From the IMG/VR virus record IMGVR_UViG_3300038960_000080, positions 1 through 21,961 of that record: DNA of 21,961 nt. One strand, given 5' to 3'. Shown piece by piece: positions 13,390-18,364 of this stretch. The notes beneath the pieces are model-generated. The model searched no databases, was not told where the DNA came from, and saw nothing but the letters and a program-made list of their open reading frames with translations. The position numbers and the translations under genes were made by a program. The stretch's first letter is position 1, and each line of letters begins with the position of its first letter. The stretch is from a virus.

Positions 13390-14400
13390 ATGGCTCAACA
13401 TGACATGAATATCGCTAACCAATCTTTCCCTGATTTCAGGACAGATTTGAATAATGCTTTATCAGCTTTGAATACAATGCACTCAGGAACAAGCAGACCT
13501 AGTGGTGCGGCTGTTGGTACAATGTGGCTTGATACAACAAACTCAGGCTCAAACAGTTTAGAAATTAAATTTTTTGATGGCTCGGATGACATTTCTTTTG
13601 CAACAGTTGATACATCAGCAAATACTATAAACTTTATAGATAGTGCTGTTGCATCAGATTTAGTTAATGACACATCTCCTCAACTTGGTGGAGATTTAGA
13701 TACAAATTCTTTTAATATTAAGATAGATGATGCCCATTTTATTGCAGATGAAAATGGTAACGAACAAATAATATTTCAAACAACTTCATCAGCAGTTAAT
13801 CAGTTTGATATAACAAATGCCGCTACAGGCAATAATCCTATTTTTGAAGCTACAGGTGGAGATACAAATATTGGTATTGATTTAAAACCAAAAGGTTCAG
13901 GAGAAGTTGTTATAGGAACAGGTGCGGCTTCAGCAACTTTAACAACAAAAGGTGCTTATGATTTAATTCTTGATACAAATGCTGGTACAAACTCAGGAAA
14001 TATTACGATAACAGATGGTGCAAATGGTAATATAGATGTATCTACAAACGGAACAGGTTATATCAAATTCAATGATCTAGCTTATATTCCTCAACAAGCA
14101 TTAACATCATCATCAAATGCTGTAGCTTGGGATGTTCAAGCTAAACCAAACGCATATCATTTAACAACAGAAAATACTACATTCTCTGCACCAACTAATT
14201 CAGTTGAGGGTTCATTTATTTGTTTAGAAATAAATTATGATGGTTCACACACAATCGCATTTAATACTATTTTTGAGTTTGCGGCTTCAACTGCACCAAC
14301 ATTTACTTCAACAGATGGTAAAACTGATATATTAGTTTTTAGATACAATGGTTCAGTTTGGCAAGAAGTCGGAAGAACATTAAATTTAAGTGAAAGTTAA
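13390..14400 (+). CDS. Tail fibre protein
   Basis: 336 residues; AAGGAG lies 12 nt before ATG, a rather long spacing. The N-terminal part (FRTDLNNALSALNTMHSG, then PSGAAVGTMWLDTTN) is the motif that in many marine phages begins fibre proteins attached to the tail tip. DTSPQLGGDLDTNSFNIK starts a repetitive beta region rich in Asn, Thr and Gly with GVDLKPKG-like repeats (GIDLKPKGSGEVVIGTG), as in beta-helical fibre shafts. The C-terminal domain (SFICLEINYDGSHTIAF, then TDILVFRYNGSVWQEVGR) occurs as a head domain in marine fibres. It probably binds the host surface. Confidence 0.75.
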   Translation: MAQHDMNIANQSFPDFRTDLNNALSALNTMHSGTSRPSGAAVGTMWLDTTNSGSNSLEIKFFDGSDDISFATVDTSANTINFIDSAVASDLVNDTSPQLGGDLDTNSFNIKIDDAHFIADENGNEQIIFQTTSSAVNQFDITNAATGNNPIFEATGGDTNIGIDLKPKGSGEVVIGTGAASATLTTKGAYDLILDTNAGTNSGNITITDGANGNIDVSTNGTGYIKFNDLAYIPQQALTSSSNAVAWDVQAKPNAYHLTTENTTFSAPTNSVEGSFICLEINYDGSHTIAFNTIFEFAASTAPTFTSTDGKTDILVFRYNGSVWQEVGRTLNLSES

Positions 14401-14403
14401 AAT

Positions 14404-15027
14404 ATGTATGCAATAGTAGAAGATAATCAAATAACACAATATGTAAATTTTCCTAAATCAATTGTGATAGGAGATGTAAGATACCCAGCTAAAATTTTTG
14501 AATTATGGTCTCAATCAGAAAAAGAAGCAATAGGTATTTATGAAATAGTAGTTGATAAAACAAACTACAAAGACCCAGCATATTACATCAATACAGATTC
14601 ATCTTATACATTTGCAGATGGTCAAGTCACTGAATCTTGGGGAACTGCTACACCAAAAAGATTAGAAGATGAAGATGCAGTAGATGAAGATGGAGAAAAT
14701 ATTTTAGATGATGATGGCAACCAAGTAATTAATTATGGTTTAAAAACAGAGAAAAAAAGAATTGTAAAACAACAAGCATCAGGATTATTAGCACCAACAG
14801 ATTGGTATGTTATAAAAGCAACAGAAGTGTCAGATTATAATGTTCCTGAAAATATCACAACATTTAGATCAGATGTTCGAGCAAAATCAAATGAAATGGA
14901 ATCTCAAATAGATGCTTGTACTAATGTTGATGAATTAAAAACACTTTATGAATATGTAAATATAGGAACAGAAGAAAACCCTGTAATTGAAAGACCACTA
15001 GCAGAATTTCCTAAAGAGGTTGTCTAA
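14404..15027 (+). CDS. Tail fibre assembly/chaperone-like protein
   Basis: 207 residues lying between fibre genes. The N-terminus begins MYAIVEDNQITQYVNFP and leads into an Asp/Glu-rich middle (LEDEDAVDEDGENILDDDGN). The segment SGLLAPTDWYVIKATEVSD resembles the LAxTDWYVxRxxE motif shared by phage proteins of the DUF4376/tail-fibre-assembly type, and a helical C-terminal part follows with regular Glu and Arg residues (RSDVRAKSNEMESQIDAC). Such proteins help fold or attach the neighbouring fibre. Some members stay in the virion, so a structural role cannot be excluded. Confidence 0.6.
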   Translation: MYAIVEDNQITQYVNFPKSIVIGDVRYPAKIFELWSQSEKEAIGIYEIVVDKTNYKDPAYYINTDSSYTFADGQVTESWGTATPKRLEDEDAVDEDGENILDDDGNQVINYGLKTEKKRIVKQQASGLLAPTDWYVIKATEVSDYNVPENITTFRSDVRAKSNEMESQIDACTNVDELKTLYEYVNIGTEENPVIERPLAEFPKEVV

Positions 15028-16475
15028 TGCCACTTATACTTGGAACTAACTCCATAAAAGATACAGGCTATGATGTAGCTAACTCATTAAGGTTTAATGA
15101 TGGGAGTTCAGATTATTTAGTAAGGTCATTAGGTAGTCAATCAAGTTTAAGAATAGGCACATTTAGTTTTTGGATTAAATTAAGTCAAATTACAGTAAAT
15201 CGTCAAATATATTCAAACGAAGTAGAGAATGACAATAATAGAGGATATATACAATTAACAAACACAGATGAATTAAGAATAGTAGATAATGATAATTCTG
15301 GAACCCATATTCAATTAAAAACAAATAGAAAATTAAGAGATGTGTCTGCGTGGTATCATATCGTTATAAGAATTGACACAACACAATCAACAAGCACAGA
15401 CAGGGTAAGAGTATATATCAATGGAGTCCAAGAAACAAGTTTTGCTCAGACAGATTATCCATCACAAAATGATGATTTAAAAATATTTGAAGGTGGTCAA
15501 ACAAATAAAAATTTATTAGGATCAGGTTATCCAGCAGGAAGTTCTTATATAGATGGTTATATTTGTGAATTTGTTTATTGTGATGGTCAATCACTAGACC
15601 CTACCTCATTTGGAGAGTTTGATTCTGATAGTCCTAATGTATGGAAGCCAATAGATGTATCAGGATTAACATTTGGAAATAATGGATTTTATTTAGATTT
15701 TGAGGATAGTTCAGCTTTAGGAAAAGATGTATCAGGAAACTCTAATAACTTTACTGTAAATAATTTAACAAGTGTAGATCAATCTACTGATACTTGCACA
15801 AATAATTTTGCAACATTGAATCCTTTAACAAATACAAGAGGAACTTCTCAAAATTTTAAAGAGGGTAATTTACAAATAGATGGTACTGGCTCAGGTGCTG
15901 GTGCAAGTGCATCTACAATATCAACAAGCACATCAGGAAAATATTATATAGAATGTAAAATAGATTCATTAGGAAGTGGTTATGCAGAATTTTTTGCAAT
16001 AGCAACTTCTTCTTATGCTAATCATACACTTGGTTATTTTGAAACAAATACAGATACTATTCTTTGGAATCTTGATTATAGATCTGGTCAATCAAAAATA
16101 AGAAAAGATGGCAGTAGTATTATAACCACACCAACTTCATTTTCAAATGGAGATATAATAGGTATGGCTATAGATGTTGATAATGGTAAAATTTATTTTC
16201 ACAGAAACGGCACTTATGTAAATTATAGTGGCACTCAAAATCCATCATCAGGAAGTAATGGTATTACTTTACCAACTTCATCAGATGGTTATTTAATAGC
16301 AGCTTCAGTAGATAATAATTCAGGATCAGGTACAACACTTACAATGAACTTTGGCTCTCCGTCATTTAGTATTTCATCAGGAAATAGTGATGGTAATGGC
16401 TATGGAAACTTTGAATATTCTGTACCATCAGGATATTATAGCTTATGCACTAAAAACTTAGCGGAGTTTGGATAA
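15027..16475 (+). CDS. Tail fibre with LamG/concanavalin-like and SPRY-like domains
   Basis: 482 residues, starting as a TAATG overlap. After a short N-terminus (MPLILGTNSIKDTGYDVANS) comes a laminin G/concanavalin-like jelly roll (about residues 20-190) with LRIGTFSFWIKLSQ, AWYHIVIRIDT and RVYINGVQETSF, the typical strands of that fold. ESSALGKDVSGNSNNF-like sequence (FEDSSALGKDVSGNSNNFTV) links it to a second beta domain (about 310-450) with YYIECKIDSL, DIIGMAIDVDNGKIYF and HRNGTYVNYSG, which is SPRY/B30.2-like. Both folds commonly bind glycans or proteins, so this is a strong receptor-binding candidate. No catalytic motif is visible. Confidence 0.78.
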   Translation: MPLILGTNSIKDTGYDVANSLRFNDGSSDYLVRSLGSQSSLRIGTFSFWIKLSQITVNRQIYSNEVENDNNRGYIQLTNTDELRIVDNDNSGTHIQLKTNRKLRDVSAWYHIVIRIDTTQSTSTDRVRVYINGVQETSFAQTDYPSQNDDLKIFEGGQTNKNLLGSGYPAGSSYIDGYICEFVYCDGQSLDPTSFGEFDSDSPNVWKPIDVSGLTFGNNGFYLDFEDSSALGKDVSGNSNNFTVNNLTSVDQSTDTCTNNFATLNPLTNTRGTSQNFKEGNLQIDGTGSGAGASASTISTSTSGKYYIECKIDSLGSGYAEFFAIATSSYANHTLGYFETNTDTILWNLDYRSGQSKIRKDGSSIITTPTSFSNGDIIGMAIDVDNGKIYFHRNGTYVNYSGTQNPSSGSNGITLPTSSDGYLIAASVDNNSGSGTTLTMNFGSPSFSISSGNSDGNGYGNFEYSVPSGYYSLCTKNLAEFG

Positions 16476-17866
16476 TGCCTTATACAACTATAGACGACCC
16501 AACAATTTATTTTAATACAAAACTTTATACTGGTAATGGTTCAAGTGGTCATGCAATCTCAGGCGTGGGATTCCAGCCTGATTGGGTCTGGATAAAAAAT
16601 AGAGGTGGTGCTGGAGATCATGCTTTACATGATTCAATTAGATCTGCTACTAACAGATTAAAAAGTAATAATTCTAACGCAGAAGCTACTGCTTCAGAGG
16701 GTTTACAAAGTTTTGATAGTGATGGATTTACTTTAGGAGATGCTGGTAATTATAATGGTTCATCTGGTACTTATGCCTCATGGAATTGGTTAGCTGGTGG
16801 AACAGCACCAGCCATAACATACTCAGTAAAAGTAGTTTCAGATTCAGGAAACAAATATAGATTTGATGATTTTGGTACAAGTGCTGTAACCTTAGATTTA
16901 CAAGAGGGTGGTACTTACACATTCGATCAATCCGATAGTTCAAATTCAGGACATCCATTAAGATTTTCTACAACATCAGATGGAACTCATGGTGGGGGAA
17001 GTGAATTTACTACAAATGTCACAACAACAGGAACTCCAGGAAGTGCTGGTGCAAAAACTGTAATCACAGTTGCTAGTGGTACTGCAACTCTTTATTATTA
17101 TTGCTCATCACATTCAGGTATGGGTGGACAAGCAAACACAAACTCAACATTTGGTTCATCAAATTTTGGTGGCAGTATTCAATCAACTGTTTCTGCGAAT
17201 ACTACTGCTGGATTTTCTATTGTGTCTTTTACAGCTAATAGTGGTACTGTTAGCACTGTTGGTCATGGGTTAGGTGTTAAACCAGATTGGATAATTTTTA
17301 AAGGAAGAAGTATAGGACAAGGTTGGATTGTATGGCATCAAGAATTTAATGCAAGAAGTAGATTAGTTTTGAATGGTACAAATGCTGTATCAACCACACA
17401 AACTAATTTTATGAATGATACTTTGCCATCATCATCAGTATTTACAATTGGAAATGATGCAGATACTAATAATGGCACAGATACTTATATAGCCTACTGT
17501 TTCGCAGAGAAAAAAGGCTACTCAAAATTTGGAAGCTACACAGGAAATGGAAATGCAGATGGAACATTTATTTATCTCGGATTTCAACCAGCTTTTTTTC
17601 TTGTTAAAAATATTACTAATGCTGGGTACGATTGGGAACTAAGAGATAATAAAAGAGATAGTTATAATCCAGTAGGTTATAGACTAGAGGCAAATACAAG
17701 TGATGCAGAGTCATCTTATTATGCAGAGTATGATTTTGTAAGTAATGGTATCAAGATAAGACAAAATGGAAATAATTATAATACATCAGGTGCATCTTAC
17801 ATCTACATGGCATTTGCAGAAAATCCATTTGTAAATTCTAATGGTGTACCCAACAACGCAAGATAG
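16475..17866 (+). CDS. Tail fibre with three repeat domains and an inserted cupredoxin-like domain
   Basis: 463 residues, TAATG overlap with the preceding fibre gene. Three copies of one fibre module are visible by their signatures: VGFQPDWVWIKNR (31-43), LGVKPDWIIFKGR (266-278) and LGFQPAFFLVKN (368-379), each ending with an aromatic strand (YASWNWLAGG, YIAYCFAEK, YIYMAFAEN). Between copies one and two, residues about 113-222 form a different beta domain that reads like a cupredoxin: SVKVVSDSGNKYRFDDFG, a GGTYTFDQSD strand, GHPLRFST with His160, then TATLYYYCSSHSGMGG with Cys210, His213 and Met216. His plus Cys-x2-His-x2-Met is the type-1 copper ligand set with the amicyanin spacing. The fibre role follows from position and repeats; copper binding is inferred. 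Confidence 0.8.
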   Translation: MPYTTIDDPTIYFNTKLYTGNGSSGHAISGVGFQPDWVWIKNRGGAGDHALHDSIRSATNRLKSNNSNAEATASEGLQSFDSDGFTLGDAGNYNGSSGTYASWNWLAGGTAPAITYSVKVVSDSGNKYRFDDFGTSAVTLDLQEGGTYTFDQSDSSNSGHPLRFSTTSDGTHGGGSEFTTNVTTTGTPGSAGAKTVITVASGTATLYYYCSSHSGMGGQANTNSTFGSSNFGGSIQSTVSANTTAGFSIVSFTANSGTVSTVGHGLGVKPDWIIFKGRSIGQGWIVWHQEFNARSRLVLNGTNAVSTTQTNFMNDTLPSSSVFTIGNDADTNNGTDTYIAYCFAEKKGYSKFGSYTGNGNADGTFIYLGFQPAFFLVKNITNAGYDWELRDNKRDSYNPVGYRLEANTSDAESSYYAEYDFVSNGIKIRQNGNNYNTSGASYIYMAFAENPFVNSNGVPNNAR

Positions 17867-17875
17867 GAATTAATT

Positions 17876-18364
17876 ATGCAATTATCAAAACATTTTACAT
17901 TATCAGAGATGGAAAAATCTCAAACAGCTACAAGAAAAGGTATATCTAATAAAGCTGGGTCAGGAGAAATAAAAAATTTAACTGATTTATGTTATGAAGT
18001 ATTAGAGCCTGTACGAGCAAAGTTTGAAAAACCAATAATTATCACTTCAGGTTATAGAAGCCCTGAACTATGCGAAGCAATAGGAAGCAAATCTACATCT
18101 CAACACGCAAAAGGACAGGCAGTAGATTTTGAGATAGCTGGTGTGTCTAATCTGCAAGTAGCTTTATGGATTCAAAATAATTGTAATTTTGACCAACTTA
18201 TATTAGAGTTTTGGAAAGCAGAAGATAAAGACCCTAACTCAGGTTGGGTTCATTGTAGCTTTGCAGAGGGAAGCAACAGAAAACAAGTATTAACATTTGA
18301 TGGTAAAACTTATACTAACGGACTTCCTGAGGCTAAATGGTCAGATGGTAAAATGCAAAACTAG
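17876..18364 (+). CDS. Endolysin, M15-family zinc peptidase
   Basis: 162 residues. It would cut peptide bonds of peptidoglycan (D-Ala-D-Ala carboxypeptidase or L-Ala-D-Glu endopeptidase type). N-terminal FTLSEMEKSQTATRKGI and the helix with VLEPVRAKF precede IIITSGYRSPELCEAIG, the start of the M15_3 fold. The zinc ligands are His77 and Asp84 in SQHAKGQAVDFE and His126 in WVHCSF; FDQLILEF between them supplies the catalytic acid candidate. No signal peptide, membrane segment or cell-wall binding domain is present, so it should need a holin to reach the wall. The start follows the fibre gene stop after 9 nt. Confidence 0.88.
   Translation: MQLSKHFTLSEMEKSQTATRKGISNKAGSGEIKNLTDLCYEVLEPVRAKFEKPIIITSGYRSPELCEAIGSKSTSQHAKGQAVDFEIAGVSNLQVALWIQNNCNFDQLILEFWKAEDKDPNSGWVHCSFAEGSNRKQVLTFDGKTYTNGLPEAKWSDGKMQN

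Follow-up and report, generated by a model that had tools for sequence, protein, structure and literature searches.

A predicted cupredoxin domain with a conserved type-1-like metal site in a pelagiphage tail fibre and in related tail proteins of marine phages

RESULTS AND DISCUSSION

A tail-fibre gene of a pelagiphage contains a single inserted domain

The portal protein encoded in the window (the whole 21,961-nucleotide stretch of DNA that was analysed) is 96% identical to that of Pelagibacter phage HTVC026P and 81 to 85% identical to those of phages HTVC202P, HTVC111P, and HTVC112P. Because of these identities, we assign the window to a pelagiphage close to the isolate HTVC026P; its source virus infects the ocean bacterium SAR11. 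Despite the near-identical portal, the fibre cassette of the window (positions 13390 to 18364) is unlike that of HTVC026P. Within the cassette, an open reading frame (ORF) encoding 463 aa is flanked by genes for a Laminin_G_3/SPRY-like protein (15027 to 16475) and an M15 peptidase (17876 to 18364). The ORF matches the Pfam family DUF7483 (PF24299) in two stretches (379 bits against a cut-off of 27, E = 2.3e−113), and its relatives in PHROGs are labelled as tail fibre or virion structural protein. Its features are as follows.

16475-17866, plus strand: DUF7483 tail-fibre ORF with the inserted cupredoxin domain, 463 aa (phrog_19943 and phrog_24898, tail fibre)
16475-16807, plus strand: first DUF7483 part, residues 1-111 (Pfam and alignment with HTVC202P gp51)
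16808-17155, plus strand: insert relative to HTVC202P gp51, residues ~112-227, comprising the cupredoxin domain and short linkers (alignment and predicted fold)
16952-16954, plus strand: codon of His160, first predicted metal ligand, in GHPLRF (His in 222/228 relatives; CAC and CAT used synonymously)
17102-17104, plus strand: codon of Cys210, predicted thiolate ligand and the only Cys of the domain (Cys in 221/223; TGT 41, TGC 39)
17111-17113, plus strand: codon of His213, predicted ligand in C-x2-H (His in 221/223; CAC and CAT)
17120-17122, plus strand: codon of Met216, predicted axial ligand in H-x2-M (Met in 219/222, Leu in the rest)
17156-17863, plus strand: second DUF7483 part, residues 228-463 (Pfam and alignment with HTVC202P gp51)

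A preliminary description of this DNA, made from the letters alone, had placed a cupredoxin-like domain inside the fibre and had named residues 160, 210, 213, and 216 as His, Cys, His, and Met. Both statements agree with the ORF, in which a single block of ~110 aa separates the two DUF7483 parts and carries these four residues. From composition, the chance of a Cys with His at +3 and Met at +6 is only ~1.5e−4. Given this value and the joint recurrence of all four residues in 219 of 228 relatives, we consider the set to exceed chance. A disulfide role for Cys210 was ruled out, since it is the sole Cys of the domain, as is the case in 215 of 228 relatives.

The approximate boundaries of the insert come from comparison with gp51 of phage HTVC202P. 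This protein resembles the window fibre in its neighbourhood (upstream of an M15 peptidase), its flanks, and its ~50% identity; it differs, as do most of the best DUF7483 matches, in lacking the cupredoxin insert. In the alignment, the extra block of the window fibre is single and clean (about P112 to G227), and the corresponding 116 residues are absent from gp51 between WNWLAGGTA and SSN. No copy of the domain is detectable anywhere in the genomes of HTVC202P and HTVC026P. In four of the best 80 DUF7483 loci, the two DUF7483 parts are separated by the insert; in DUF7483 proteins that carry it, it is mostly found at this position and in a few cases elsewhere in the chain. Because the domain is cleanly present or absent, and usually but not always at the same place, we conclude that it is a mobile module. 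On aligned sequences, the comparison with HTVC202P cannot tell apart an insertion from a deletion.

The insert is predicted to fold as a cupredoxin

AlphaFold2 models the domain with high confidence (pLDDT 90, pTM 0.84, 48 aligned relatives), and the full-length ORF comparably (pLDDT 89.5). When the domain model was compared with the PDB using Foldseek and VIA, all 50 of the matches listed for each were cupredoxin-fold entries. The best match is the N-terminal domain of HdNIR (Z = 10.5, rmsd of 2.4 over 102 residues), and the others include rusticyanin (Z = 9.2), small laccases, and amicyanin. Values of Z below 8 may be generic in such a comparison; those of the listed matches range from 10.5 to 8.8. 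The same folds are matched by residues 109 to 225 within the full-length model, while the DUF7483 parts of that model gave no significant Foldseek match, so the comparison is uninformative about those parts. The cupredoxin-type beta fold foreseen in the preliminary description is thus upheld by a predicted barrel, and one of the outcomes that it had named as refuting, the lack of a Greek-key beta barrel, did not materialize.

In the numbering of the model, H53 precedes the strand 55-58, C103 is at the end of the strand 99-103, and the strand 111-116 comes after H106 and M109. This predicted layout of the ligands along the secondary structure is that of a canonical cupredoxin, and it bears out the earlier reading of a Cys-x2-His-x2-Met motif at amicyanin spacing with the first His upstream. 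As in members of the cupredoxin superfamily (amicyanin, pseudoazurin, rusticyanin, the HdNIR N-terminal domain, PF00127), the first His stands ahead of a middle strand of the same predicted barrel, and the Cys, the second His, and the Met are found together in the loop that joins its last two strands, in the same ligand order. The window domain differs from known cupredoxins in forming part of a virion protein, as an internal module with no signal peptide, in scoring below the PF00127 cut-off, and in that a bound metal has not been shown.

An exported protein of Prochlorococcus links the phage domain to copper proteins

A Pfam match to Copper-bind (PF00127) spans exactly the inserted domain at 16.3 bits, below the cut-off of 21.2 (E = 0.013 for the domain alone). 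The best phage member tested also falls short (19.7 bits). By sequence, solved structures offered little: phmmer found no significant match, and the best profile match was pseudoazurin (E = 0.28), the rest being antibodies. A connection is provided by a 148-aa exported protein of Prochlorococcus MIT 9201 (L295), which scores 29.4 bits against Copper-bind, above that cut-off, and matches the profile of the phage family with E = 1.8e−10; His, Cys, and His are aligned, and the Met is matched across a 2-residue insert. In addition, when the phage family was aligned by hhalign with five Copper-bind proteins from hosts, the match had E = 3e−5 with the ligands His, Cys, and His in register, at a probability of only 73%. 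Given the bridge through L295 and the hhalign result, we place the phage domain in the cupredoxin superfamily, though not formally in PF00127. The function of L295, an exported copper-type protein, is unassigned.

In pseudoazurin, whose loop reads CAPHVGMGM, it is the second Met that serves as axial ligand, and in that register the phage Met might fall on a residue that is not a ligand. We disfavour this register. L295 has the plastocyanin-type spacing C-x2-H-x4-M, in contrast to C-x2-H-x2-M in the phage domain, and its alignment pairs the phage Met with the plastocyanin-type Met. Moreover, PDB titles name His143 and Met148 among the residues of rusticyanin, whose aligned range stops at residue 155, while that of the window domain stops at residue 223; Met148 and M216 are both 7 residues before the stop. 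If the last strand is ungapped, M216 may be inferred from the models to align with Met148. For these two reasons, we prefer M216 as the ligand.

Two further cellular proteins, from SAR86 (L172 and L186), belong to the same family with the same ligands as L295 and the phage domain; unlike the phage domain, all three are cellular proteins with signal peptides or a lipobox.

The four predicted ligands are kept in nearly all relatives

Across 48 aligned sequences, in which the other members are 42 to 85% identical to the window domain, only six columns are invariant (H53, V75, C103, H106, M109, and G110), and four of these are the predicted ligands. In the larger set, all four ligands are jointly kept in 219 of 228 distinct sequences, so the survey of homologous phage proteins suggested in the preliminary description finds that the Cys and His residues are not freely substituted. 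The remaining nine sequences comprise one with DCHL, two with KGTL or EGTL, and six partial alignments that stop short of all ligand columns. The length of the loop varies slightly with the ligands kept (C-x2-H-x2-M in 216 sequences, C-x2-H-x4-M in two, C-x4-H-x2-M in one), as it does between known cupredoxin families.

Because profile scans can favour copies that bear the motif, the scan was repeated with a 48-aa query lacking all four residues. Pooled with the earlier loci, some of which overlap, the loci recovered have Cys and the second His in 280/280 and the first His and Met in 279/280 each. Copies without the ligands were nonetheless also recovered by profile scans. The codons of the ligands vary synonymously, and for His, Cys, and His we take this variation as a sign of selection on the protein and not of recent copying.

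These data bear on whether the phages use the fold as a mere scaffold, with a vestigial metal site in an Ig-like adhesin. The KGTL and EGTL copies, which are second domains of gp7-like proteins in cyanophages S-CAM22 and P-SSM7, lend this idea some support, because their occurrence means that the fold can exist without the site. A vestigial site, however, would be expected to lose its ligands one at a time, and no full-length copy among the 228 lacks exactly one; departures lose two or all four. With 219 sequences retaining the complete set while surrounding columns diverge and codons change synonymously, we regard a scaffold-only role as highly improbable.

In the gp7-like ORFs L277 and L278, the second domain (residues ~552 to 673) has lost all four ligands together (K or E, G, T, and L). 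A single copy, L242 (residues 134 to 242 of its ORF), has Asp where the first His would be and Leu instead of the Met, with Cys and the second His kept.

The domain is widespread in tail proteins of marine phages

A scan of viral sequences confirmed at least 591 relatives. Among 50,697 phage records, 156 match at E 5, and their names are those of Synechococcus, Prochlorococcus, cyanophage, Pelagibacter, Methylophilales, or marine or uncultured viruses. In cyanophages, pelagiphages, and methylophages, the module is carried by fibre, gp7-like, and gp9-like proteins, with up to five matches per cyanophage genome; the gp9-like connectors consist of the Pfam domain T4_gp9_10_N and a C-terminal domain. 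Isolates with the domain include Pelagibacter phage HTVC028P, EXVC032P Baldr, and the cyanophages S-TIM5 and P-SSM2. No match was found in plasmid sequences. The preliminary description had considered such a domain unexpected in a tail fibre. It is present in this one, yet it is not peculiar to it: as a mobile module, it is widespread in the tails of marine phages.

In bacteria, the domain occurs as a short predicted lipoprotein of SAR86 in a conserved chromosomal neighbourhood. On four SAR86 contigs (L172, L181, L182, and L186), predicted lipoproteins of ~180 aa have a lipobox-like AxC followed by a Gly run, and their genes adjoin those for SDR and enoyl-CoA hydratase proteins and for an exported protein of ~970 aa.

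Within 38 fibres, the mean identity of the domain is 78%, against 41% for the flanks, and distances between domains correlate only weakly with those between flanks (Spearman of about 0.2, versus 0.43 between the two flanks). As far as sequences can tell, this combination would fit either strong constraint on the domain or its movement between fibres. A tree built from the domain has good support for just 20 of its 66 inner branches; at this poor resolution, it does not show in which direction the domain moved between phages and hosts.

One might also ask if the domain is a hijacked plastocyanin, fused by accident from an auxiliary metabolic gene of the petE type. Cyanophages do carry petE, published as a separate metabolic gene (PMC2984593). 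The profile of the phage family, however, has no detectable match to the host plastocyanin-like protein L289, and the domain is found inside virion genes, lacks a signal peptide, and repeatedly sits at one place in DUF7483 fibres, between their two parts, which makes this origin scarcely credible. The domain is not a stand-alone exported electron carrier of the petE type, since it is internal to the 463-aa ORF with DUF7483 on both sides.

A metal-pinned structural or adhesive module is the favoured explanation

Sequence and prediction give good support to reading the insert as a cupredoxin fold whose type-1-like metal site is conserved, in the absence of coordinates for ligand distances and of metal data. 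Metal binding itself is inferred, and we hold it to be very likely. We hypothesize that one metal ion would be bound through His160, Cys210, His213, and Met216, as Cu(I) or Cu(II) acquired in the cell or after lysis, with zinc as the main alternative. The metal would fix the shape of the barrel at its loop end, and the exposed barrel face would vary. This rigid barrel would be a surface domain, structural or adhesive, that phages plug into proteins of the fibre and the baseplate. Taken as a whole, a cupredoxin with a C-x2-H-x2-M loop serving as a metal-pinned structural or adhesive module is, in our judgement, the likely explanation.

The identity of the metal is less secure. The cytosol, in which phage proteins fold and tails are assembled, has little free copper, and the native metal of the insert may therefore not be copper. 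Zinc is more available there, cupredoxins are able to bind it, and most metals known from phage tails are iron or zinc in a structural role. A purely structural zinc or iron ion in a cupredoxin-type site would be in line with the structural iron of known tail fibres (PMC11705849). Against it stands the ligand set, since His-Cys-His-Met with a soft Met ligand, kept in nearly all relatives, is typical of copper. We consequently regard zinc or iron as possible, if doubtful, and copper, inferred from ligand chemistry, as the probable physiological metal. Since the domain recurs, with its four predicted ligands almost unchanged, in tail and baseplate proteins of many marine phages, the tails of these phages very probably carry metal sites, most likely copper, though metal data are lacking.

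For the function of the site, the main rival to a structural or adhesive module is that it docks with, or exchanges electrons or copper with, a periplasmic or outer-membrane protein of the host. Both the fold and the ligand set are those of electron carriers, SAR86 encodes a predicted lipoprotein with a related domain, and iron-bearing HxH tail fibres (T4 gp37 and Alteromonas phage R22Y) have been published together with the Trojan horse hypothesis, which is the nearest published idea (PMC11705849). Against this, gp7- and gp9-like proteins of the baseplate have the module as well, and these would not be expected to meet a dedicated redox partner; nor did the analysis identify a conserved partner gene. 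That the module is restricted to marine phages is compatible with such a function but does not prove it. We find redox exchange or docking unlikely. It is decidedly unlikely, too, that dominant ocean phages (pelagiphages, cyanophages, and methylophages) have functional type 1 copper centres in their tails that serve in adsorption by docking on host envelope proteins, or by exchanging electrons or copper with them, in a copper version of the iron Trojan horse. Fibres and baseplate proteins whose neighbours are unrelated retain one and the same site; for this reason we favour a stability role over one dedicated redox partner, and for the structural or adhesive role, which is inferred without direct evidence, our preference is slight.

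The HxH fibres resemble the window fibre in having a metal site (predicted in the window) in a phage tail fibre and in their marine context; they differ in fold and ligands, the window site being His2-Cys-Met. The ORF has His only at positions 26, 49, 52, 160, 172, 213, 264, and 288, and thus no HxH motif. No open-access paper on cupredoxin domains in phage tails was found, with subscription journals and preprints outside the scope of the search. The cupredoxin fold itself is known; the novelty, which is provisional, lies in a type-1-like site that is conserved in the tails of phages. If the interpretation is true, a conserved His2-Cys-Met site in tails and baseplates of phages that infect abundant ocean bacteria represents a new class of virion metal site, virions are a possible copper ligand in seawater, and the single Cys gives a directly testable handle on how these fibres work. 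The assignment also provides a likely fold for many marine virion proteins whose current annotation says no more than hypothetical or tail fibre.

Three giant-virus "beta-sandwich proteins" in BFVD (A0A481Z6J5, A0A481YVH3, and A0A481Z7Q7, from Pithovirus and Marseillevirus metagenomes) also match the domain model in Foldseek, with E values of 3e−6 to 6e−5.
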